The notes under the pieces were generated by a model, which was not told the origin of the DNA, ran no database searches, and saw only the letters and a list, made by a program, of their open reading frames with translations. A stretch of 36,602 nucleotides of DNA. Origin: an uncultured Treponema sp. (GTDB taxonomy: Bacteria; Spirochaetota; Spirochaetia; Treponematales; Treponemataceae). Shown piece after piece: positions 6,004 through 17,067 of the stretch. The stretch's first letter is position 1. Each line of letters starts with the position of its first letter. Location: contig CAMBMW010000006.1 of NCBI GenBank assembly GCA_945868875.1, forward strand, positions 1-36,602. The letters run 5' to 3'. The position numbers were made by a program, and so were the translations under genes.

Positions 6004-7809
6004 TTATTCATCTCCTTTATCCCATTGCACTTCCACAACCCTTGCTCCTTTATTTGGAATGCGGTGATAAATCAAACAATCTGCTTTGTGAATTGTGACA
6101 CCTTTTGAACGTGTTACATAACCTACAATAAGATCGGGATAATGAGGATGACAGCACTGCGCCAGATTGTAAAGTACATTTTTATCGCCTTGTACGAGAA
6201 CTTTACAGTTTTTTACAATCTGCGGCTGATCTTCTTTTTTTCCAGCTTTAGGACGTCGTTTTTGAGGAAATTTTTGTTCATTATTGTGACTTTGAGTGGC
6301 TAGAATTTCGGCTTCCTTTTGGAGCGTAATTTTTTCACTGAAAGTCGGGTCATTTGTCATGAGCCATGAATGAATTTTCTGATGTGCTTTCGAAGTTTTT
6401 ACAAGTTTAAGCTGATTTTCCGTCGGATGAGCCTGAGGATTTGTGATGATTTCGATAATCTGTGTATTCGCAAGAGGTTTTGAAAGTGGAATTATTTTTC
6501 CGTCCGCTTTTGCCGCAATTATTTTTTCACCGATTGCCGAATGAATTGAGTATGCAAAATCTATTGCTGTGGCGCCTGCCGGCAGTTTTCTTACATCCCC
6601 TTTTGGCGTAAAAACATAAATTTCATCGCCTAAAAGTTCATTTTTGAGAGTATTGAAAGTTGCTTCATCAGTGAGAGAATTTTCTTTAAACTGCTGCAAT
6701 TTGTTGAAAATATCAAGTTTATCAGCTTCTACTAAATCGTGGTTTGTCCCCTTTTTATAAAGCCAGTGAGATGCAATTCCGTGTTCTGCCATGTTATGCA
6801 TTTCGTAAGTGCGGATTTGAATTTCAAGAGGTTTTCCTTCACAAATCACAGTCGTGTGCAATGACTGATAACCGTTTGATTTTGGCATTGCAATATAGTC
6901 TTTGAAACGTCCGTCCATAGGTTTCCACAAACCGTGAACAATTCCAACCAAAGTGTAACATTCTGCCTGAGTATTGCACAAAATTCGCAAAGCAAGTAAA
7001 TCATAAAGTTCACTGGCCTCTTTGTTACGTTTGCGCATTTTTTGATAAATCGAATAAAAATGTTTTGCGCGGCTTTTTATCGTCACAGAAATTCCCATTT
7101 TTTCTGCCGATTTATAAATGCTGTTAACAGCCTTTTCAAGATAAGCAGCTCTTTCTTCCTGCGATTGCGAAACAATTTCTTCTATCTGTTTATACACTTT
7201 TGGATTAGTGTATTTCAAACTCATGTCTTCAAATTCATTTTTTTCTTTCTGCATTCCAAGTCGGTCTGCAAGCGGTGCCCAAATTTCAATAACCGCTTCA
7301 GCCAGTGCATGCTGCTGTTCTTTTTCCAGACTTGAAATGTTTCTGATGCGGTCAAGTCTGTCAGAAAGTGTAAGCAAAATTACTCTTGGATCATCACACA
7401 TTGCAAAAAGCATTTTTCTGATGGCGTCAGATTCGTGAAGCGTTTTGGAATTCATAGGAAGTGTGATGATTTTGTTTGTCGTAATTAAAATTTTTGCTAC
7501 ATTTTCACCAAACTCCTGTTTTATCATTTCTGGAGAAACTTCAAATTTATGAATTGGATGCAAGATTCCAGCGACAATTGTATCTGCATCAAGTCTATTT
7601 GCCGCAAGAATATAAGCAACTCTCAAAGGATGAAAATAATAAGGTTTTCCACATGCGCGAACAATTTTTTCTGTCTTTGAAATGAGTAAATCCCATGCTT
7701 TAGTGATTTTTTGTCTGTCAGAATCTGAATAAGAATCGTTCGTTTTAAAAAAATCAGAAAGTAATTCGGCAGGAGTTTTGTCCATTGGTAAATCAAATTC
7801 GTTTCTCAT
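6004..7809 (-). CDS. rel: RelA/SpoT-type (p)ppGpp synthetase with degenerate hydrolase domain
   Basis: Makes the stringent-response alarmone from ATP and GTP/GDP. Domains in order: a hydrolase-like domain (about 50-195), a synthetase (about 235-350), TGS (about 394-458) and a Zn-finger-like Cys/His segment (CCHPHYP) near the C-terminus. The synthetase keeps YSIYQKM, RFKDYIAMPKSNGYQSLHTT (about 301-320) and EIQIRT, so it looks active. RFKD is the motif of bifunctional enzymes. In the hydrolase part His60 is kept, but the HDxxED signature reads HPIHKF (84-89), so hydrolysis is probably lost. At 601 residues it is shorter than the usual ~720 and has no room for the C-terminal ACT domain. The Shine-Dalgarno is AAAGGTG. 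Whether a separate hydrolase exists cannot be seen here. Confidence 0.9.
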   Translation of the reverse strand: MRNEFDLPMDKTPAELLSDFFKTNDSYSDSDRQKITKAWDLLISKTEKIVRACGKPYYFHPLRVAYILAANRLDADTIVAGILHPIHKFEVSPEMIKQEFGENVAKILITTNKIITLPMNSKTLHESDAIRKMLFAMCDDPRVILLTLSDRLDRIRNISSLEKEQQHALAEAVIEIWAPLADRLGMQKEKNEFEDMSLKYTNPKVYKQIEEIVSQSQEERAAYLEKAVNSIYKSAEKMGISVTIKSRAKHFYSIYQKMRKRNKEASELYDLLALRILCNTQAECYTLVGIVHGLWKPMDGRFKDYIAMPKSNGYQSLHTTVICEGKPLEIQIRTYEMHNMAEHGIASHWLYKKGTNHDLVEADKLDIFNKLQQFKENSLTDEATFNTLKNELLGDEIYVFTPKGDVRKLPAGATAIDFAYSIHSAIGEKIIAAKADGKIIPLSKPLANTQIIEIITNPQAHPTENQLKLVKTSKAHQKIHSWLMTNDPTFSEKITLQKEAEILATQSHNNEQKFPQKRRPKAGKKEDQPQIVKNCKVLVQGDKNVLYNLAQCCHPHYPDLIVGYVTRSKGVTIHKADCLIYHRIPNKGARVVEVQWDKGDE

Positions 7810-8047: not shown

Positions 8048-9355
8048 ATGAAAAAAAAAGTACATTTTGTTCGTGCCAGGCGGTCGTTTTTCTTTTCAGC
8101 ATTTTTGTTTTTTTGTGGATTTTGTTTTGCCCAACAAAAGGAAACAAGAATCATCACTGTAGATGACGCAGTTTCGCTTGCTTTAGAAAACAACATTTCC
8201 ATAAAAAGAAATCAAATCACGCTGGAAACTCTTGAACTAAAAAATAAATATTCATGGAACTCAGTAAGTCCTTCTATCAGTGCCTCTGCAAATTATAATC
8301 AGCCTCTTGGGAATGGGAAAAATGATAATTATTCGTTGAATGCTTCAGGCTCAGTTTCCATTCGTCTTTCACCTTCTGTTTACACTTCCATTCAGAGTGC
8401 AAAACTTAATTACGAAATGGGAAAAATTTCTTATGAGCAGGCAGTTAAATCTGTAGAATTGGAAGTGCGAAATGCTTTTTATCAGATGTTATATGCAAAA
8501 GAAAATCTTTCACTTTTGGAACGAAATCTTGAAACTGCAAAACAGCGCTATAATCTTAATCTCGAAAAATATCAAAAAGGTCAACTCTCCGAACTTGATT
8601 TACTTTCTGCCCAATATAGTTATGAAAGTTTGATTCCAAATATCGAAGCCTCACAAATAACAATGGAAAACAATATGTCAACTTTCAAGCAGTTGCTTGG
8701 ACTTAATCAAACTGAAAGTATTGAATTGTCAGGCAGCCTTGATGATTTTCTTTCTTCTTTTGATTTTACATTTTCTTTTGATATAAATGAAATTCCTTCT
8801 ATGAAAAATTTGAATTATCAAATTGAGAGTGCAAAAAATCAGCTTTTGGCAACGCGCTTTTCAGCTTATGGTCCAAGTTTAAGTTTCGGTTTTTCAGCAG
8901 GCAAAGATTTGAAAAACACTGATTCAGATTTTACGTTTTCATTGTCTGCAGGAGTTTCTGTTCCTCTTGACGGATTTTTGCCATGGTCAAGTGGAGCATT
9001 AAGCATTGCCAATCAGAAAGCAACTTTAGAAGATTTAAAACTTCAGCTTGAAAACCAGAAAACAACACTCGAAATCCAAATTCAAAATTCTACAAAAAAA
9101 ATCATGCAGGCTCAAAGTCAGCTTGAATTACTTGAAAAAAATGTTGACCTTGCCCAAAAAAAATATGATATGACACAAACAGCTTACTCTCACGGTTCAA
9201 AAGATTTTCTGACACTTCAAGATTCAGCAAATTCTTTATTAAACGCGAAAATTTCTCTTATGAGTCAAAAGATTACACTTTTAAATGCTGTTTTATCTTT
9301 GGAAAACACTTTGGGCATTCCTTTTGGAACTCTGATGGATTCAGAATCTAAATAA
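8048..9355 (+). CDS. TolC-family outer membrane efflux protein
   Basis: 435-residue outer-membrane channel of a tripartite efflux system. A signal peptide (basic MKKKVHFVRARR, hydrophobic core, probable cut after Ala28 in CFA) is followed by the two-fold repeated helical arrangement of OEP proteins. Long polar helices lie around 105-180 and 310-420, with alternating beta-type segments such as SASANYNQ and FSLSAGVSVPL. There is no lipobox, so it is the non-lipidated type. The Shine-Dalgarno GGAG lies 6-7 bases before the ATG. It is first of four genes in one direction (this, fusion protein, RND pump, PII-like), so it should be the exit duct of that pump. The substrate cannot be read from sequence. 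Confidence 0.9.
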   Translation: MKKKVHFVRARRSFFFSAFLFFCGFCFAQQKETRIITVDDAVSLALENNISIKRNQITLETLELKNKYSWNSVSPSISASANYNQPLGNGKNDNYSLNASGSVSIRLSPSVYTSIQSAKLNYEMGKISYEQAVKSVELEVRNAFYQMLYAKENLSLLERNLETAKQRYNLNLEKYQKGQLSELDLLSAQYSYESLIPNIEASQITMENNMSTFKQLLGLNQTESIELSGSLDDFLSSFDFTFSFDINEIPSMKNLNYQIESAKNQLLATRFSAYGPSLSFGFSAGKDLKNTDSDFTFSLSAGVSVPLDGFLPWSSGALSIANQKATLEDLKLQLENQKTTLEIQIQNSTKKIMQAQSQLELLEKNVDLAQKKYDMTQTAYSHGSKDFLTLQDSANSLLNAKISLMSQKITLLNAVLSLENTLGIPFGTLMDSESK

Positions 9356-9393: not shown

Positions 9394-10557
9394 ATGCAAA
9401 AAACTACAAAGATTATTGTAACTCATGTAATTGTGGGAGTTATTTTGATACTGACTTTTCTTGCAGTCAAAATGATTGGCTCTTCAAAAAAAAGTGCTTC
9501 TGGAATGCCTGGAATGATGCCGCCTGCAAATTCTATGGCAGGAGGAGGCGCTGGTGGTGGAGGTGCCGGGAATGGCGGTACCGCTAAACCTGGTAGCAGT
9601 ACTTCTAAAGAAGCGGCAGCTGGTAACGGCACATCGGGTGCTGGCGCAGGAAATGCAAACGGAGGCACTGGAATGGGTACCAATGACGCTGGTAAAAATG
9701 GGATGGCAGCTGCTGGAAATACAATGCCTGGTAATGCTAATTCAAATACCAGCGGTAAAAAATCACAAACTGTTACACCGGTGCGAACAGTTGTTGCTAA
9801 CGAAGTCATTTTGCAAGATTACGTTATGACAAGTGGTGATATTCAAACTCAAACATCAATAGAAGTTTTCCCTTCGATTGGTGGAACAGTAGTTCAAATG
9901 AATGTTTCACTTGGTTCTCCAGTCAAAAAAGGGGAAGTCATCGGATACATTGATCCTTCAGAACCGGGAAGTTATTATGCAAAATCTCCGATTACTTGTC
10001 CTATTAGTGGAAGCATCTTGTCTGCTCCAGCAAAACCTGGTCAAAAAGTGCAAGCCAGTTCTGTCATTACAAAAATCGGTGATATCGAAAATCTTCAGAT
10101 TTCTGCAAAAATTCCAGAACGTTATGTTGCTGAACTTGCAGTTGGACAAAAAGCCGAAATCAAACTGGAAGCGTATCCTGATGTCAGCTTTTCTGCTTCA
10201 GTTGTAAGAATTTCTCCTGTCGTAGATTCAGCAACTCGCACAAAAGAAATAATTTTAAATTTTGATAAAAAAGACAGTCGCATAAATGCCGGAATGTTTG
10301 CAAAAGTCAAACTTTTTACATCAGCTTATAAAGGTACATTTGCTATCGGACAAGATTCCATCGTTTCGAATTCTGACAAAAATTATCTGTTTGTTGTTAA
10401 TGATGATGATACAGTTTCTAAGCGGGAAGTAACACTTGGAAAAAATGTTGACGGATATTATCAGATTTTAAGTGGAATCGAATTTGGCGAAACAGTTGTA
10501 ACAGAAGGAATGCTCACTTTGTACGAAGGTGCAAAAGTGCGTGATATTGGAAAATAA
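9394..10557 (+). CDS. RND efflux membrane fusion protein with Gly/Ala/Asn-rich linker
   Basis: 387-residue periplasmic adaptor. An N-terminal membrane anchor (about 7-28) is followed by a low-complexity Gly/Ala/Asn/Met/Pro/Ser stretch (about 38-122). The HlyD-type core comes next: lipoyl half-motif VFPSIGGTVVQMNVSLGSPVKKGEVIGYID, its partner PISGSILSAPAKPGQKV, and the beta-barrel and membrane-proximal domains up to TEGMLTLYEGAKV. The alpha-hairpin between the lipoyl halves is nearly absent, as in some short adaptors. The linker is GC-rich and much longer than usual. It probably spans periplasmic distance to the TolC-like partner. The Shine-Dalgarno GAGGG is clear. It lies 38 bases after the TolC-like gene and 31 before the pump. 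Confidence 0.88.
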   Translation: MQKTTKIIVTHVIVGVILILTFLAVKMIGSSKKSASGMPGMMPPANSMAGGGAGGGGAGNGGTAKPGSSTSKEAAAGNGTSGAGAGNANGGTGMGTNDAGKNGMAAAGNTMPGNANSNTSGKKSQTVTPVRTVVANEVILQDYVMTSGDIQTQTSIEVFPSIGGTVVQMNVSLGSPVKKGEVIGYIDPSEPGSYYAKSPITCPISGSILSAPAKPGQKVQASSVITKIGDIENLQISAKIPERYVAELAVGQKAEIKLEAYPDVSFSASVVRISPVVDSATRTKEIILNFDKKDSRINAGMFAKVKLFTSAYKGTFAIGQDSIVSNSDKNYLFVVNDDDTVSKREVTLGKNVDGYYQILSGIEFGETVVTEGMLTLYEGAKVRDIGK

Positions 10558-10588: not shown

Positions 10589-13500
10589 ATGAGTCTTTCA
10601 AGAAAAACAATGGATCACCCGATTCTTGTACTTATGATTTTTACACTTTTGGGACTTTTGGGAATTTTTACATTCAGCAAGATTGCCATCGCTTTGTTTC
10701 CAGAAACAGAAAACCCAGTTCTGCAAATAATGACAACTTATTCAAATGCGGGACCTGAATCAATAGAAAAAACAATCACAAAACCTATAGAAAGTGCAGT
10801 TGCCAGCGTAAACGGATTGCAAAGCATATCTTCCACTTCAAGCGAAGGTTCTTCATCAGTTCAACTCATTTTTGATTACGGCACAGATTTAGATGTTGCA
10901 GTTGATGATATAAGGCAAAAACTCGAAAGAGTTACAAGAAGCCTGCCAGATGCAGCAGGTTCTCCTTCAATCATGCGTTTTGGAAGTGACAGCATGCCTA
11001 TAATGAGAATTCTTGTACGCGGAAATCGTTCCGCAGACGATCTTAAAAAAATCGCTGAGAATTCGATTATTGATGTTCTCGAGCAGGCAGATGGAGTTGC
11101 AGAAGCTGATGTAATGGGCGGACGAGCAATTCAGGTGAATATTGAACTTGATTCAAGTAGACTTCAAGCTTATGGTTTTACAATTCCAACAATTACTTCA
11201 GCACTTTCCAAACAAAATCTTGAACTTGGTGGCGGAAAAGTTCAAGAAGGAACAAAAAATTACATTGTAAGAACAACCGGAGAATACACAAGCATAGATG
11301 AAATCAACGATACTGTTATTGCCACAGTAAACGGTTACAATGTAAAACTTCGCGATGTCGGAAATGCTTATTTGGGATATGCTCAAACATCACAAGAAAG
11401 TTACATCAATGGAGAACAAGGTGTTTATGTTTCCATCACAAAACAGTCAGGTTCAAATTCTGTAAATGTTGCAAACAGCGTTTATAAAAAAATCGACCAG
11501 TTGCAGGAAACACTGCCATCAGACATCACTTTGGAAATCATTTCAGATGACACAGAATCAATTCGTGAAACAATTAATATTCTCGTGGAATCTTTGTTGC
11601 AAGGTTTAATTTTATCGATTGTGATTTTGTGGGTTTTCCTTCAGAGTTTTAAATCTACGATAATAATCGGCATTTCAATTCCATTGTCCATGATTGTAAC
11701 TCTTTTTGCAATGAGTATGTTTGGCATCACTTTGAACATGATGACATTGACAGGACTTATACTTGGACTTGGTATGGTCGTTGATGCATCCATCGTTATG
11801 ATAGAAAACATTTATTCATACAGACAGCGTGGTGCAAGACCAAAAGTGGCGGCAATTCTTGGAAGTCAGGAAATGCTTATGTCTGTCATTTCGGGAAACC
11901 TTACAACAATTTGTGTTTTCGTACCATTTTTATTCTTCATAGAAGATTTAGGAATGATGGGACAGATGTTTCAAGGAATTATTTTCACAATCGTAATTGC
12001 CCTTGTTTCATCTTTACTTGTTGCAATTTTCCTTGTACCTGTTCTTGCAGGAAAATTCCTTCCACTAACAAACAGAAATGAAAAACCAGTAAGAAATCCT
12101 GTTTTTAAATTTCTGTACGGAATTTTCCAGAAAGTTATCAGTATTTTTACAAACGGATATGCAAAACTTTTAAAACTTTGTCTTAATAACCGTCTGATTA
12201 CTCTGGTTGCAGCTTGCGCTGTTTTAGTAATCGCATTTGCAATGATTCCTACAATGAAAATCAATTTGATGCCAGGCGGACAATCAGATTCAGTAACACT
12301 CAATATTACATTACCAGTTGGAACAACTTTTGAAGAAACAAAAAAAGTCTTACTTGCATTCGAAAATTATGTTAATACAGAAATTCAGGGTGCAAAAAAC
12401 ATAACAACTTCTATTGGTTCAAGCGGTAGAAACAGTTCCACAAACAGAGGTTCCATTCAAATTTCTTTGCCAGATTCAGAAAATCAAATAGATTCAGCTC
12501 AGGTAATGGAACAAAAACTTCGTGCTCATTTTGATGAATTTCCAGGTGCAACATTCAGCTTTAGAGGTGGAATGCGAAGTCAGATGTTTGGAGCGGATAT
12601 TGATATAGTTTTACGTTCAAATGATTTGGACGCTGCTTTGGACACAGCAGATAAAATTGCCGAAGTTATCAGTGCAAATGCAGAATGTGGCGAACCTTCT
12701 ATCAGCATGGACAAAGGACTTCCACAAGTTGAGGTTGTAATTGATCGTCAGCGTGCTTATGATTTTGGGGTTGATATTACAACAGTTGCCAGAGAAATAA
12801 ACTATGCAATCAACGGAACAACAGCATGTGTTTATCGTTCGAATGGTGAAGATTACGATGTTGTAGTTTCTTATCGCCCAGAGGACAGAAAAACAATAGA
12901 CGATTTGGAATCAATATACGTGCGCGGTTCAAACGGAATGGTTAGCGTTGCAAATTTTGCTACCCTCAAAAAAGGACTAGGACCAGTTTCTATCAATCGC
13001 GAAAATCAATCGAGAATTATTCACGTAACTGCTAGCATTTTAACAGACACAAATGCAAATATTATTGAAGACCAGATAAAAGAAGGCATAAACTCATCTT
13101 TCATCATTCCAGATTCTGTAAGCGTAACTTACGAAGGTTCATGGGGCGACACAATGGAACAGATGAGTCTTTACTTGAAAATCATTGCAATGGCTGTAAT
13201 TCTCGTTTTTGGCGTAATGGCTGCAACTTACGAAAGCTGGAAGGCTCCACTTATCAACCTTGCCACAATGCCGTTCCTCGTAATTGGTGTAATTTTCCTT
13301 TATAAAATAATCGGACAGGCAATTTCTTTGATGTCAATGGTCGGAATTATCATGCTTGTTGGAATTGTTGTAAACAACGGAATCATTCTTGTTGACTACA
13401 CAAACCTGCTTGTGGGACGCGGTGTTCCACTAAAAGATGCGTGTTATCAGGCTGGAAAAAGTCGTTTCCGACCAGTTTTGATGACCACTTTGACGACAAT

Positions 13501-13729
13501 TCTTGGAATGCTTCCTATGTGTTTTGCTTCCGGCGGACAGTCAGAAATGGTTCAGCCAATTTCACTTGCCGTTGTAGGAGGACTTATTTCAAGTACGTTC
13601 ATTACACTGCTTGTAATTCCAGTATTATACAGTCTTGTGATGAAATCATTTAAAAAGAAAAAACGAATGATAAAACTTGAAGGAATTGAATATAATCAAA
13701 AAGAGACAGTAGAACTAAACACAAAATAG
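10589..13729 (+). CDS. RND-family efflux permease (AcrB/HAE1-like)
   Basis: 1046-residue inner-membrane proton-driven pump, full length for the family. The N-terminal TM helix is followed by the SIEKTITKPIESAV porter start, and two large periplasmic loops (about 40-330 and 560-870) separate the TM bundles. In TM4 the pattern is VVDASIVMIEN: one Asp of the AcrB Asp-Asp pair is kept and the second is Ala. In TM10 the AcrB Lys position falls in VVNNGIILVDY, an Asn. These replacements fit the non-proteobacterial RND subclass rather than a broken pump. Export of hydrophobic drugs or other amphiphiles is plausible, and metal export less so, since no Met-rich metal path is obvious. The Shine-Dalgarno is AGGATG. 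The PII-like gene follows 10 bases later. Confidence 0.93.
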   Translation: MSLSRKTMDHPILVLMIFTLLGLLGIFTFSKIAIALFPETENPVLQIMTTYSNAGPESIEKTITKPIESAVASVNGLQSISSTSSEGSSSVQLIFDYGTDLDVAVDDIRQKLERVTRSLPDAAGSPSIMRFGSDSMPIMRILVRGNRSADDLKKIAENSIIDVLEQADGVAEADVMGGRAIQVNIELDSSRLQAYGFTIPTITSALSKQNLELGGGKVQEGTKNYIVRTTGEYTSIDEINDTVIATVNGYNVKLRDVGNAYLGYAQTSQESYINGEQGVYVSITKQSGSNSVNVANSVYKKIDQLQETLPSDITLEIISDDTESIRETINILVESLLQGLILSIVILWVFLQSFKSTIIIGISIPLSMIVTLFAMSMFGITLNMMTLTGLILGLGMVVDASIVMIENIYSYRQRGARPKVAAILGSQEMLMSVISGNLTTICVFVPFLFFIEDLGMMGQMFQGIIFTIVIALVSSLLVAIFLVPVLAGKFLPLTNRNEKPVRNPVFKFLYGIFQKVISIFTNGYAKLLKLCLNNRLITLVAACAVLVIAFAMIPTMKINLMPGGQSDSVTLNITLPVGTTFEETKKVLLAFENYVNTEIQGAKNITTSIGSSGRNSSTNRGSIQISLPDSENQIDSAQVMEQKLRAHFDEFPGATFSFRGGMRSQMFGADIDIVLRSNDLDAALDTADKIAEVISANAECGEPSISMDKGLPQVEVVIDRQRAYDFGVDITTVAREINYAINGTTACVYRSNGEDYDVVVSYRPEDRKTIDDLESIYVRGSNGMVSVANFATLKKGLGPVSINRENQSRIIHVTASILTDTNANIIEDQIKEGINSSFIIPDSVSVTYEGSWGDTMEQMSLYLKIIAMAVILVFGVMAATYESWKAPLINLATMPFLVIGVIFLYKIIGQAISLMSMVGIIMLVGIVVNNGIILVDYTNLLVGRGVPLKDACYQAGKSRFRPVLMTTLTTILGMLPMCFASGGQSEMVQPISLAVVGGLISSTFITLLVIPVLYSLVMKSFKKKKRMIKLEGIEYNQKETVELNTK

Positions 13730-13739
13730 GAGTGATTTT

Positions 13740-14096
13740 ATGGCAGAAAGTAATGAAAAAAATAATGAAAATATTTCTGATAAACAAGATAATCAAAATC
13801 AGATTGAATATCGTGTGGAAATAATCTGTAATCAATCAATACAAGATGATGTGATTGAACTTTTGGAACAAGAAATACAAGATATTCAATATACGGTTAT
13901 TGAAAATGTAAATGGAAAAGGCTTAAGTTCAAAAAAACTTGGAAACACAACGTGGCCGGAAATGAATTTTTTGCTTTTTGCCTATACTGATTTGTCTGGA
14001 GCAAAAAAAATCAAAATTATTGTTGAAGCACTAAAAAAGAAATTTCCAAAAGAAGGAATCAGCATATTCTTTTCAAAATGCGAAATTCTTGCATAA
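13740..14096 (+). CDS. PII-like small protein encoded with the RND pump
   Basis: 118 residues. A polar, disordered-looking start (about 1-22, rich in Asn/Glu/Asp) precedes one compact alpha/beta domain. The pattern is beta YRVEIICN, helix DDVIELLEQEI, beta QYTVIENVNGKG, loop, beta MNFLLFAYTD, helix AKKIKIIVEALKKKF and beta GISIFFSKCEI. This is the ferredoxin-like order of the PII/CutA superfamily and resembles DUF3240-type proteins found beside RND efflux genes. Its AGGAG ribosome-binding site and 10-base spacing after the pump gene put it in the efflux operon. A regulatory role on the pump is inference. There is no typical PII T-loop signature. No strong terminator is seen in the 63 bases after it. 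Confidence 0.6.
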   Translation: MAESNEKNNENISDKQDNQNQIEYRVEIICNQSIQDDVIELLEQEIQDIQYTVIENVNGKGLSSKKLGNTTWPEMNFLLFAYTDLSGAKKIKIIVEALKKKFPKEGISIFFSKCEILA

Positions 14097-14159
14097 AAAA
14101 AATTGACTGAACATTTGCTCTTGAACATTTTAATTTGTCCATTTGCAATAAAAAACAAA

Positions 14160-15122
14160 TTAAAGCGGATTGAAAGCCCTGTCTTTCCAACATTCCACAA
14201 CACGAAGTTGCCCTTCCAAATCTTTGTGGAGTGTTGTTTTAAAATGATGGGAACTGGCAATTTTTTGGGCATCCAAAGCATTATATTCGCCAGTTTCCAT
14301 CAAGATTACACCTTCAGGACAAAGATGATTATAACACTGTGGCAAAAGTGAACGGATGATTTCAAGTCCGTCATCAGTCTGTGAAAAATCACCGGGCATG
14401 AAGCCGTTCTTTTTTTGAGTACAAACATCGCCGTCAAGTGCTAAACGTGGTTCATTTCTTCCATCCCGTAAGAGTTCTTCTACCATTTCATGGGGAACAT
14501 AAGGAGGATTTGTCAAAATGACATCAAAAGTCCATCCTCCATCATTTGAAAACTGTTCAAAAAGATTTGAACGCACAAAACGCACTTTATCAGACGGAAT
14601 TCCAAGTTTTTTTGCATTCTGCATAGCAATTTCCAAAGCTGCAGGAGAAATATCCGCGAGAGTAAATTTTGGAAGATTAGCGGATGAAATCTTATATATA
14701 TCGATTAATGCTTTTGCAACAGAAAGCCCAATGCATCCCGAACCAGTGCACATATCACAAACAGTCAAAATCAGATTTGGATGATTTTCCATTTTTTCCA
14801 GAATAATCTCAATCCCGCGTTCCACAAGAATTTCCGTATCAGGTTTTGGAATCAAAACAGCGGGCGAAACATCAAATTCATACCCAAAAAAATCTTTTTT
14901 TCCAGTGATGTAAGCAATAGGAAGACCTGTTTTACGTTTTTGAACAGCCTGAAGAAGTAAGTTTTCCTGCTCAGGCAAGATTTCCTTTTTATAATTCAAA
15001 AGAATCTGCGTTTTATTAAAATCCAAAAAATGTTCAAGTAGAACATTTACATCAAGCATAGGAGAAGGCGAGTTTTTTAATTCATTTAATGCATACTTTT
15101 TAAAATCTTCAATTGTCATCAT
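14160..15122 (-). CDS. prmC: Peptide chain release factor N5-glutamine methyltransferase
   Basis: SAM-dependent cytoplasmic enzyme that methylates the Gln of the GGQ motif in release factors. The protein is 320 residues, slightly longer than the usual ~280. A helical N-terminal domain (about 1-80) precedes IPKPDTEILVE (91-101). Next come the SAM-binding motif DMCTGSGCIGLSVAKA (123-138) and the catalytic NPPY at 205-208 in TNPPYVPHE. Two adjacent ATGs (15122 and 15119) are possible starts, and neither has a Shine-Dalgarno. It lies 37 bases after the GGDEF gene that follows prfA, so enzyme and substrate gene are still in one minus-strand cluster. A rare insertion (YKISSANL, about 143-150) sits after the SAM motif. 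Confidence 0.92.
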   Translation of the reverse strand: MMTIEDFKKYALNELKNSPSPMLDVNVLLEHFLDFNKTQILLNYKKEILPEQENLLLQAVQKRKTGLPIAYITGKKDFFGYEFDVSPAVLIPKPDTEILVERGIEIILEKMENHPNLILTVCDMCTGSGCIGLSVAKALIDIYKISSANLPKFTLADISPAALEIAMQNAKKLGIPSDKVRFVRSNLFEQFSNDGGWTFDVILTNPPYVPHEMVEELLRDGRNEPRLALDGDVCTQKKNGFMPGDFSQTDDGLEIIRSLLPQCYNHLCPEGVILMETGEYNALDAQKIASSHHFKTTLHKDLEGQLRVVECWKDRAFNPL

Positions 15123-15159: not shown

Positions 15160-17067
15160 TTATTTCCTGCGGTTTTTCTTTGCAATTTTTTTCTTGTACA
15201 TCAATTCGTCGGCAAAAGAAAGCATAGCATCAAAATTTTTGTCACAAGATGAATGAATGCCAATGCTTGCAGAAACTTTATAAGGATTGCCTGAATTCAC
15301 ATTATATTCTTCTATATAATTATTGATTTTATCTTCGATAGACTTGGGGTCAACTTTTTTTGTGAATAGAGCTAGAATTTCATCTCCACCATAGCGGCAA
15401 CAAATACATTCATTTGAATCGAATGAACTCAAAAAAGCATTTGCAACAGTTTTAATGGCAATATCACCATGTGCATGACCGTAAGTATCGTTGATTGTTT
15501 TAAGATTGTCTAAATCACACATCATAAGCGTCAAAAACTCGACTTTATCATTCTTTTTGAGCGCTTCAAACATTTTCAAAAAAGCTGTTCTGTTGTAAAG
15601 TCCTGTTAAAGCATCTAGACTGTACATTCTTTCAATGCGATTTTGAAGATAATGCTGATATTGTAACGTTCTGAACCCAAAAAGTGCATTGCTAATCCAA
15701 GTCGTAATCTGAGAAACTCTGTTAAAATTTTCTTTATGATAAAAATCAAAATAAAAAACAAGATAACCAAGCGTCAAATCAATATGATTAAGTGGAGAAA
15801 AAATCAAAGGTTTTTTAATATCAAAAAGTTCATCAATATTATAAACTAAATCTTTTGTATCAAAAAGTTTTTTTTCGTTCTGAGGAGAAGTTGGATCAAA
15901 AAGTACGTACATCATATCGCCATAAACAGACTGCGTGTGAGAAGTATTTGGACAGTTTTCATCAGAAATACATTCTGCCTTCAAAAAACATTTCACATTA
16001 ATTTTTAAAGTTTCGTGCATTTTTTGCGCAACTTCATCAAGACTGGAACATTCCTGAATAGAAAAAGAAAGCTGGCTGTAAATATATTCTTCGTCTCGGA
16101 AAAGATTATAGTAAGTTCCTAAACTAGTGATAAATTCCAAAGATTGATTTGAAAAAGATTTAGAAAAACTGCTTAAAGATGAGTTTGAAGCACAGCCGCA
16201 GGATTCAGAAATGATTAAATTCGGTTCAATAAATTTTGAAAACGGTTTAAGTTGTGGATTTTCTTTTATCTCATTGTCTATCTGTAAAATGAATTTTGCA
16301 ACTTCAATTCCAAGCATCTGGAAGCTGCACAAAGCCGAAGTAATTTTTGGATTTGAATAAAAAATGTACTCAATGCCGTCAAACCCCGTAACAAGCACAT
16401 CACGAGGACATTTATATCCATTTCGTCGAAGTACAGAAACAGCCGCAATCGCCATAGAATCATTTGCACAAATAATCGCACCAGGAACACGTCCTTCATC
16501 AACAAGTTTTTGAACAGCTTTTTTTGCAGGTTCTTCCCAAAAATCACCGAAACTTATCATAGACTCATCAAAATGAATTTTATGTTCGGCAAGAACTTCC
16601 TTAAAAGCTTCAAGACGTTCATTTGAAACATCACTGTCCTGACGACCACACAAAAAATGTAAATCAGTTACATTATGCTGCTCAATTATATGTTTTGTAA
16701 TTTTTCGGATTCCAAGTTTGTGATTAAATCCAATATTAAAATATTCAGAATTTGTTCCACCAAAAACAAACGTTGGAATATTGTGAGCTTTTGCTTTTTG
16801 GAGGATACCGTTTTTAACCTCAGCATTTAACAGATTTTCATTTGAAACAAAAACTGCATCAGCAATTTCGTAATTTATAAGGTCAAAAATTTTTGCTTCA
16901 CCTTTGGAATTATCTGTTTTTAAAAATAAATCAGTTAATGTTGAAAAAATTAGAATTCTCCAACCATGAAGAACCAAATCATCATTCAATGCGGAAATAA
17001 AATAATTAAAATTGCTTTCGTGAATCCTAGAAGTACAATAGACTAAAATTTTATATCCGTTTAGCAT
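15160..17067 (-). CDS. Diguanylate cyclase with LacI-type ligand-binding sensor
   Basis: 635-residue cytoplasmic protein with no signal peptide or TM segment. Residues about 1-285 form a periplasmic-binding-protein/LacI-like sensor without the DNA-binding helix-turn-helix. Typical phrases are GAIICANDSMAIAAVSVLRR and VLVTGFDGIEY, and it ends at ESCGC (about 291-295). A middle GAF-like or linker region (about 310-460) follows. The C-terminal GGDEF domain starts DALTGLYNRTAF and carries CDLDNLKTINDTYGH and the active-site loop RYGGDEI, so it should make c-di-GMP from GTP. No RxxD inhibitory site precedes the loop. It starts 3 bases after the prfA stop, so it is probably translated from the prfA mRNA, and prmC follows. 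The ligand is probably a small molecule such as a sugar or nucleoside, but this is inferred only from fold type. Confidence 0.88.
   Translation of the reverse strand: MLNGYKILVYCTSRIHESNFNYFISALNDDLVLHGWRILIFSTLTDLFLKTDNSKGEAKIFDLINYEIADAVFVSNENLLNAEVKNGILQKAKAHNIPTFVFGGTNSEYFNIGFNHKLGIRKITKHIIEQHNVTDLHFLCGRQDSDVSNERLEAFKEVLAEHKIHFDESMISFGDFWEEPAKKAVQKLVDEGRVPGAIICANDSMAIAAVSVLRRNGYKCPRDVLVTGFDGIEYIFYSNPKITSALCSFQMLGIEVAKFILQIDNEIKENPQLKPFSKFIEPNLIISESCGCASNSSLSSFSKSFSNQSLEFITSLGTYYNLFRDEEYIYSQLSFSIQECSSLDEVAQKMHETLKINVKCFLKAECISDENCPNTSHTQSVYGDMMYVLFDPTSPQNEKKLFDTKDLVYNIDELFDIKKPLIFSPLNHIDLTLGYLVFYFDFYHKENFNRVSQITTWISNALFGFRTLQYQHYLQNRIERMYSLDALTGLYNRTAFLKMFEALKKNDKVEFLTLMMCDLDNLKTINDTYGHAHGDIAIKTVANAFLSSFDSNECICCRYGGDEILALFTKKVDPKSIEDKINNYIEEYNVNSGNPYKVSASIGIHSSCDKNFDAMLSFADELMYKKKIAKKNRRK

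Follow-up and report, generated by a model that had tools for sequence, protein, structure and literature searches.

The DNA analysed here (the window, a stretch of 36,602 nucleotides from an uncultured Treponema sp.) carries a four-gene operon on the forward strand, in the order tolC-adaptor-RND-PII. The first gene (8048-9355) encodes a TolC-like outer-membrane channel of 435 aa and the second (9394-10557) a periplasmic adaptor of 387 aa (HlyD/CusB-like, RND_mfp), both assigned by profile matches. They are followed by an HAE-like RND pump of 1046 aa (10589-13729) and, as the last gene, by a PII-like protein of 118 aa (13740-14096, NCBIfam NF045581, with its core at residues 23-112). The operon is bordered by a convergent prmC-like gene (14160-15122) and by a divergent gene (6004-7809, reverse strand), which was judged by eye to be RelA/SpoT-like. 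Past the prmC-like gene, a reverse-strand gene (15160-17067) combines, also as judged by eye, a LacI/periplasmic-binding-like part with a GGDEF motif. Behind the membrane anchor of the adaptor, at about residues 35-125, about 90 residues form a low-complexity stretch rich in Gly, Ala, Asn and Ser that diverges fast among close relatives.

The pump matches PF00873 (ACR_tran) with 789.6 bits and, among solved structures, is nearest to MdtB, CmeB and MexB, being closer to these than to ZneA. It reaches 678.5 bits against the NCBIfam subfamily of multidrug RND permeases and 461.8 bits against that of metal RND pumps, both below the respective cut-offs (1250 and 701.45); the term "drug-type" for this pump expresses a leaning.

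The open reading frame of the PII-like protein comprises 118 codons and starts with an ATG 10 bases after the TAG stop of the pump gene (13727-13729). A ribosome-binding site, AGGAG (13728-13732, forward strand), overlaps this stop and lies 7 bases from the ATG. The frame, its spacing from the pump gene and the AGGAG site, together with the reading as a PII-like protein encoded by the fourth gene of an RND operon, had been proposed in a first-pass annotation made from the letters alone, and were confirmed. The core of the protein is under strong purifying selection (dN 0.042, dS 0.82, and dN/dS about 0.05 in comparison with the nearest relative), and 11 related loci retain the gene, with identities of 45-81%. 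Thus, the frame at 13740-14096 is more than a chance ORF.

Family and fold of the PII-like protein

The protein scores 82.9 bits against NF045581 (PG0541 family transporter-associated protein; curated cut-off 45), with a match that extends over positions 2-90 of the 91 in the profile, and a transporter gene adjoins it; on these grounds it is assigned to the family. NF045581 is a curated family model without a function, in which fusion to a pump is not mentioned, and in the open papers found, PG0541 is listed only as a hypothetical protein. The only plausible Pfam match is to P-II (PF00543), which at 21.3 bits stays below the gathering cut-off of 25, and a similarly weak match is found in 9 of 11 family members. 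An assignment as canonical P-II (GlnB/GlnK) was rejected, given this sub-threshold score and the missing ATP-binding loops: in an alignment with the canonical PII domain of the genome's own Amt-PII protein, both the B-loop (TGxIGDGK) and the C-loop (RxR/RTG) are absent. Membership in DUF3240, CutA1 or DUF190 was discarded as well, as none of the 11 members has a Pfam match to them at E <= 1; DUF3240, which the first-pass annotation had named for comparison, therefore gives way to NF045581, which matches clearly.

The beta-alpha-beta-beta-alpha-beta order read from the sequence was borne out by structure prediction. An AlphaFold2 model (monomer, 11 sequences) confidently gives a betaalphabeta-betaalphabeta ferredoxin-like core, with a T-loop equivalent between strands 2 and 3 as in the PII superfamily. 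The pLDDT is about 86-92 in the core and below 50 at residues 1-19 and 60-70. Fold comparisons gave PII-like proteins throughout as the closest solved structures, most often SbtB and CPII, while sequence searches of the PDB (phmmer and profile searches) gave chance matches only. The kinship to PII proteins is thus drawn from the fold and, in addition, via SbtB-like proteins of spirochaetes: two loci (L100 and L101) encode P-II proteins next to SbtA-type transporters (Sbt_1, 391-395 bits), and these P-II proteins reach 33-39 bits with the PG0541 model, so that the relationship to SbtB-like proteins is visible by sequence too. Such SbtA-SbtB-like pairs (Sbt_1 plus P-II) of Spirochaetota genomes are located at 2868-4192 of L100 and 1309-2592 of L101.

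The T-loop equivalent of the window protein (residues 58-75; 13911-13964, forward strand) is flexible in the model and reads G59-x-G61 ... [KR]-[LM]-G68 ... W72-P73-[EQ], with a further motif residue, N76, just beyond it at the start of the next strand. Across 60 domain sequences, G59, G61, G68, W72, P73 and N76 are invariant and T52 and E105 never or hardly vary, while no invariant Cys or His is found. An alignment of the family with the spirochaete SbtB-like proteins reveals a YT...GxG motif and a G-x-x-W-x-E...N stretch in common. The polar N-terminal tail noticed in the first-pass annotation (residues 1-22; 13740-13805, forward strand) is present and is probably disordered, as predicted by the model, but did not hold as a conserved feature: similar sequence is found in the two nearest relatives only. 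The tail is lineage-specific, and its candidacy as a functional feature was rejected.

The protein can be compared with several known systems. SbtB and CPII are the best structural matches and share the YT...GxG motif, a short B-loop and a gene position directly after that of a trimeric transporter; the spirochaete SbtB-like proteins also have a similar G-x-x-W-x-E...N stretch. The partners differ, an SbtA-type (Sbt_1) or similar inorganic-carbon transporter there and an RND exporter here, and the C-terminal redox R-loop CGPxGC, known from some SbtB only, is absent from the window protein, which ends in SKCEILA. GlnK/GlnB with AmtB likewise combine the same fold with a transporter partner, but the window protein has neither their ATP-binding B- and C-loops nor their long T-loop with Tyr51. 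PII-NG is a PII-type protein in an RND operon, as is the case in the window (PMC7726332); going by its description, it is set apart as a GlnB/GlnK-derived clade beside heavy-metal pumps, whereas the window protein belongs to another family and accompanies an HAE-like pump. The small proteins AcrZ, YajC and WatS1 modulate RND pumps (PMC10710835) and, unlike the window protein, are not PII folds, AcrZ being a membrane helix.

Further pairings of membrane proteins with PII domains were observed in the source genome. The ammonium transporter (Amt) mentioned above forms one fused protein of 580 aa with an entire canonical PII domain (L057 100-1842) and represents a second transporter-PII pairing, and a third is formed by a DUF1538 membrane protein followed by a protein of 215-235 aa with two tandem PII-like domains (L058 3-1797).

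Linkage to one pump clade and pump-PII fusions

Matches to NF045581 above cut-off were found in 176 of 200 genomes of the genus, 140 of 197 of the order and 117 of 296 of the phylum; the family is absent from the 14 control genomes and gave no match on plasmids. Its name shows, as we take it, that it also occurs in Porphyromonas. The surroundings of about 90 family members across Spirochaetota were read. The conservation beside RND genes on which the first-pass reading would hinge was indeed found: among 93 above-cut-off domain ORFs (which include a few places fetched twice, 90 pairs being left after identical ones were dropped), 81 are adjacent to an RND gene and 10 are fused to one, that is, domain and pump occur together in 91 of 93. 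The adjacent ORFs follow the RND gene directly and in the same orientation, mostly at a distance of -4 to +20 bases. As for the two exceptions, one PII-like gene (L093) is located one gene further on, with a gene judged by eye to be FliM-like in between, and the other sits at a contig edge with the pump out of view.

This linkage is restricted to one pump clade. Within the genomes of 15 relatives, 17 of the 18 pumps that belong to the clade of the window pump have a PII-like gene, versus none of the 10 pumps of other clades, three of which run off the locus end so that absence there rests on the genome-wide family tally. The sole exception in the clade (L129) has no downstream reading frame for a PII-like protein and has lost the gene. 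The window's own genome, a draft that is 85% complete and from which a further copy could be missing, encodes a second pump, which falls in another clade and is without a PII-like gene. Distances on the pump tree and the PII tree are correlated with r = 0.89 (maximum 0.17 in 2000 permutations), a value that linked genes could reach through their shared descent by itself.

Some variation was seen around these pairs. In many Treponema genomes, 2-5 pump/PII pairs are present. They fall into two subfamilies (NQSVE...WPE and SQALEED...WPQ; L013-L042, L059-L077), and the PII of each goes with a pump clade of its own. The PII-like protein of one family of the order (L059, L060, L064-L068) has a C-terminal low-complexity extension of about 90-240 residues, often Pro- and Ala-rich. 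A tract of roughly 700 bases over the PII gene (window 13600-14300) is about 100% identical between the relatives L002 and L003, which otherwise share about 88%, while the window and L002 differ by 20% there and by about 3% otherwise. It looks, from these identities, as if the PII allele had been swapped by recombination without the pump in the two nearest relatives, although MAG chimeras would also be possible; such a swap would mean that a close co-adaptation of pump and PII is not required.

At ten distinct places, the PII-like domain is fused in frame to the pump C-terminus after TM12. Five of them were found in T. socranskii (L008 and L009), in Treponema sp. Marseille-Q4130 (L010) and in two MAGs of rumen Treponema (L011, L012). 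Three more genomes of the genus contribute L047, L049 and L094, and the last two come from another genus of the family (L050) and from a different family of the phylum (L092). Where complete, the fused ORFs span 1131-1158 aa with a linker of 27-55 residues (L049 is cut by the contig end), and fused domains score 77.0 and 69.5 bits in NF045581. Given that several isolate genomes are included, T. socranskii among them, and that the lengths agree, the fusions are not assembly slips. The AlphaFold2 model of a fused pump, with a mean pLDDT of 54, is too poor to place the domain and was read only for the order TM12 - linker - betaalphabetabetaalphabeta. In a tree built from the pump part only, the fused pumps form two groups, a single fused clade being rejected (p-AU 0.0009), and the split pumps of the window are sister to one of these groups with support of 100/99. 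The pump tree therefore calls for at least two changes of fusion state, and two origins of the fusion, or one origin that was undone in the lineage of the window, are equally parsimonious. Other apparent extra domains were dismissed: those at the C-terminus of two pumps (L115, L121) consist only of an upstream frame and a low-complexity tail, and those in four long frames (L041, L061, L062, L063) mostly of an upstream open frame overlapping the pump gene.

The arrangement extends to Borrelia-type genomes (family f7), in which the PII-like gene is found behind the pump too. In one of them (L090), it starts 8 bases after the pump gene; the Borrelia-type protein scores 73.4 bits in NF045581, and the adaptor of the L090 operon matches PDB 4kks, the entry for BesA of B. 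burgdorferi, with 340 bits. As published, the Bes system comprises three genes, besC-besA-besB (PMC2279261), and no fourth component is mentioned in the open PMC papers searched.

Part of this picture is already known. The PG0541 family name and its transporter link are catalogued, and PII-NG beside CzcABC has been published (PMC7726332); the first-pass annotation had regarded a small-molecule gate on a drug-type RND pump as unusual, and PII-like proteins beside RND pumps do have precedents (PII-NG and the NCBIfam label "transporter-associated"). What is new is a family spread across Spirochaetota that is near-always behind, or fused to, one RND clade. In the open PMC literature, we found nothing on the function of PG0541 or BB0139, on a PII-RND fusion, or on the Borrelia gene.

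A candidate regulatory subunit of the pump

What the computation shows is the gene with its fold and family, a near-obligate linkage to a single pump clade, the fusions, and a history that pump and PII-like protein have in common. These results strongly support a physical association, and the PII-like protein is almost certainly an integral pump component. By analogy with other PII systems, it would most likely act as a gate that answers to the metabolic state of the cell. Our preferred reading, which we consider probable, is that the protein works in the cytoplasm as a PII-like regulatory subunit and is dedicated to the pump of its own operon.

RND pumps are trimeric with cytoplasmic C-termini (as in AcrB), and PII proteins are trimers as well. 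When trimers of SbtB and GlnK dock on their transporters, which are trimeric too, the T-loops are inserted and the threefold axis is common to both partners (PMC8352866, PMC10710835). The same geometry would fit an RND trimer, and a fusion would place three PII domains under each pump. Three copies of the PII-like protein would form a PII-type trimer that lies beneath the pump trimer on its cytoplasmic side, sharing its threefold axis, and the conserved T-loop equivalent (GxG...G...WP[EQ]xN) would contact cytoplasmic loops of the pump. A small ligand in the clefts between the PII subunits may then alter this contact, so that efflux is either allowed or restrained, in a working mode like that of SbtB on SbtA or GlnK on AmtB. 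The trimer, the docking site, the ligand and the sign of the effect (inhibition or activation) are all parts that we infer, as is, by analogy, the small-molecule gate suggested in the first-pass annotation. Kinship to SbtB/CPII would make an adenyl nucleotide the first guess for the ligand, though the loss of the loops that bind phosphate in canonical PII calls for caution; a metal is a less likely ligand, as the family conserves neither Cys nor His and matches neither CutA nor DUF3240.

Other roles have to be weighed against this regulatory one. The PII-fold trimer might instead be a structural or assembly subunit that stabilises the pump or aids its trimerisation with no ligand sensing. The missing canonical nucleotide-binding loops speak for such a role, and being fused to the pump would be as useful for stability as for control. 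However, trimerisation is established for the RND family, pumps of other clades trimerise without a PII-like protein, and the near-invariant residues (T52...E105) lie largely at GxG/T-loop and B-loop positions, which are ligand or partner sites in PII; we therefore regard a purely structural role as rather unlikely. A role as metal sensor for a metal-exporting pump, in the manner of CutA, PII-NG or DUF3240, is quite improbable. PII-NG proteins, proposed to be metal sensors, do cluster with CzcABC metal pumps (PMC7726332), and the RND and adaptor proteins of the window match metal-pump models too, below cut-offs; yet the protein has no Pfam match to CutA1, DUF3240 or DUF190, invariant Cys or His are lacking, and the pump scores best on drug-type models (678 vs 462 bits) and structures.

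Finally, signalling might run in the reverse direction, the pump capturing the PII-like protein at the membrane and releasing it to some other target, by which the state of the pump would be reported to the cytoplasm. GlnK is comparably sequestered by AmtB, and the PII-like gene is a separate one in most genomes, but the domain of the fused pumps cannot leave, to which pump control is the better fit, and we hold reverse signalling to be very improbable.

Control of RND pumps is usually thought to act through expression and through small membrane proteins such as AcrZ. PII-type regulators have been reviewed for Amt, SbtA and ABC importers and seem to be limited to trimeric transporters, with none named for RND pumps (PMC10710835). 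In its widest form, our proposal of a dedicated regulatory subunit would be that the spirochaetal RND class, Lyme-group Bes included, has a built-in cytoplasmic PII trimer that gates drug or lipid efflux by an adenyl nucleotide or another metabolite, which we put forward only tentatively. If the PII-like domain does gate the pump, efflux would be directly responsive to metabolites and not governed by expression alone. A fourth component that has gone undescribed would be added to the Bes pump, and the fused forms would offer a ready single-polypeptide target for structure work.
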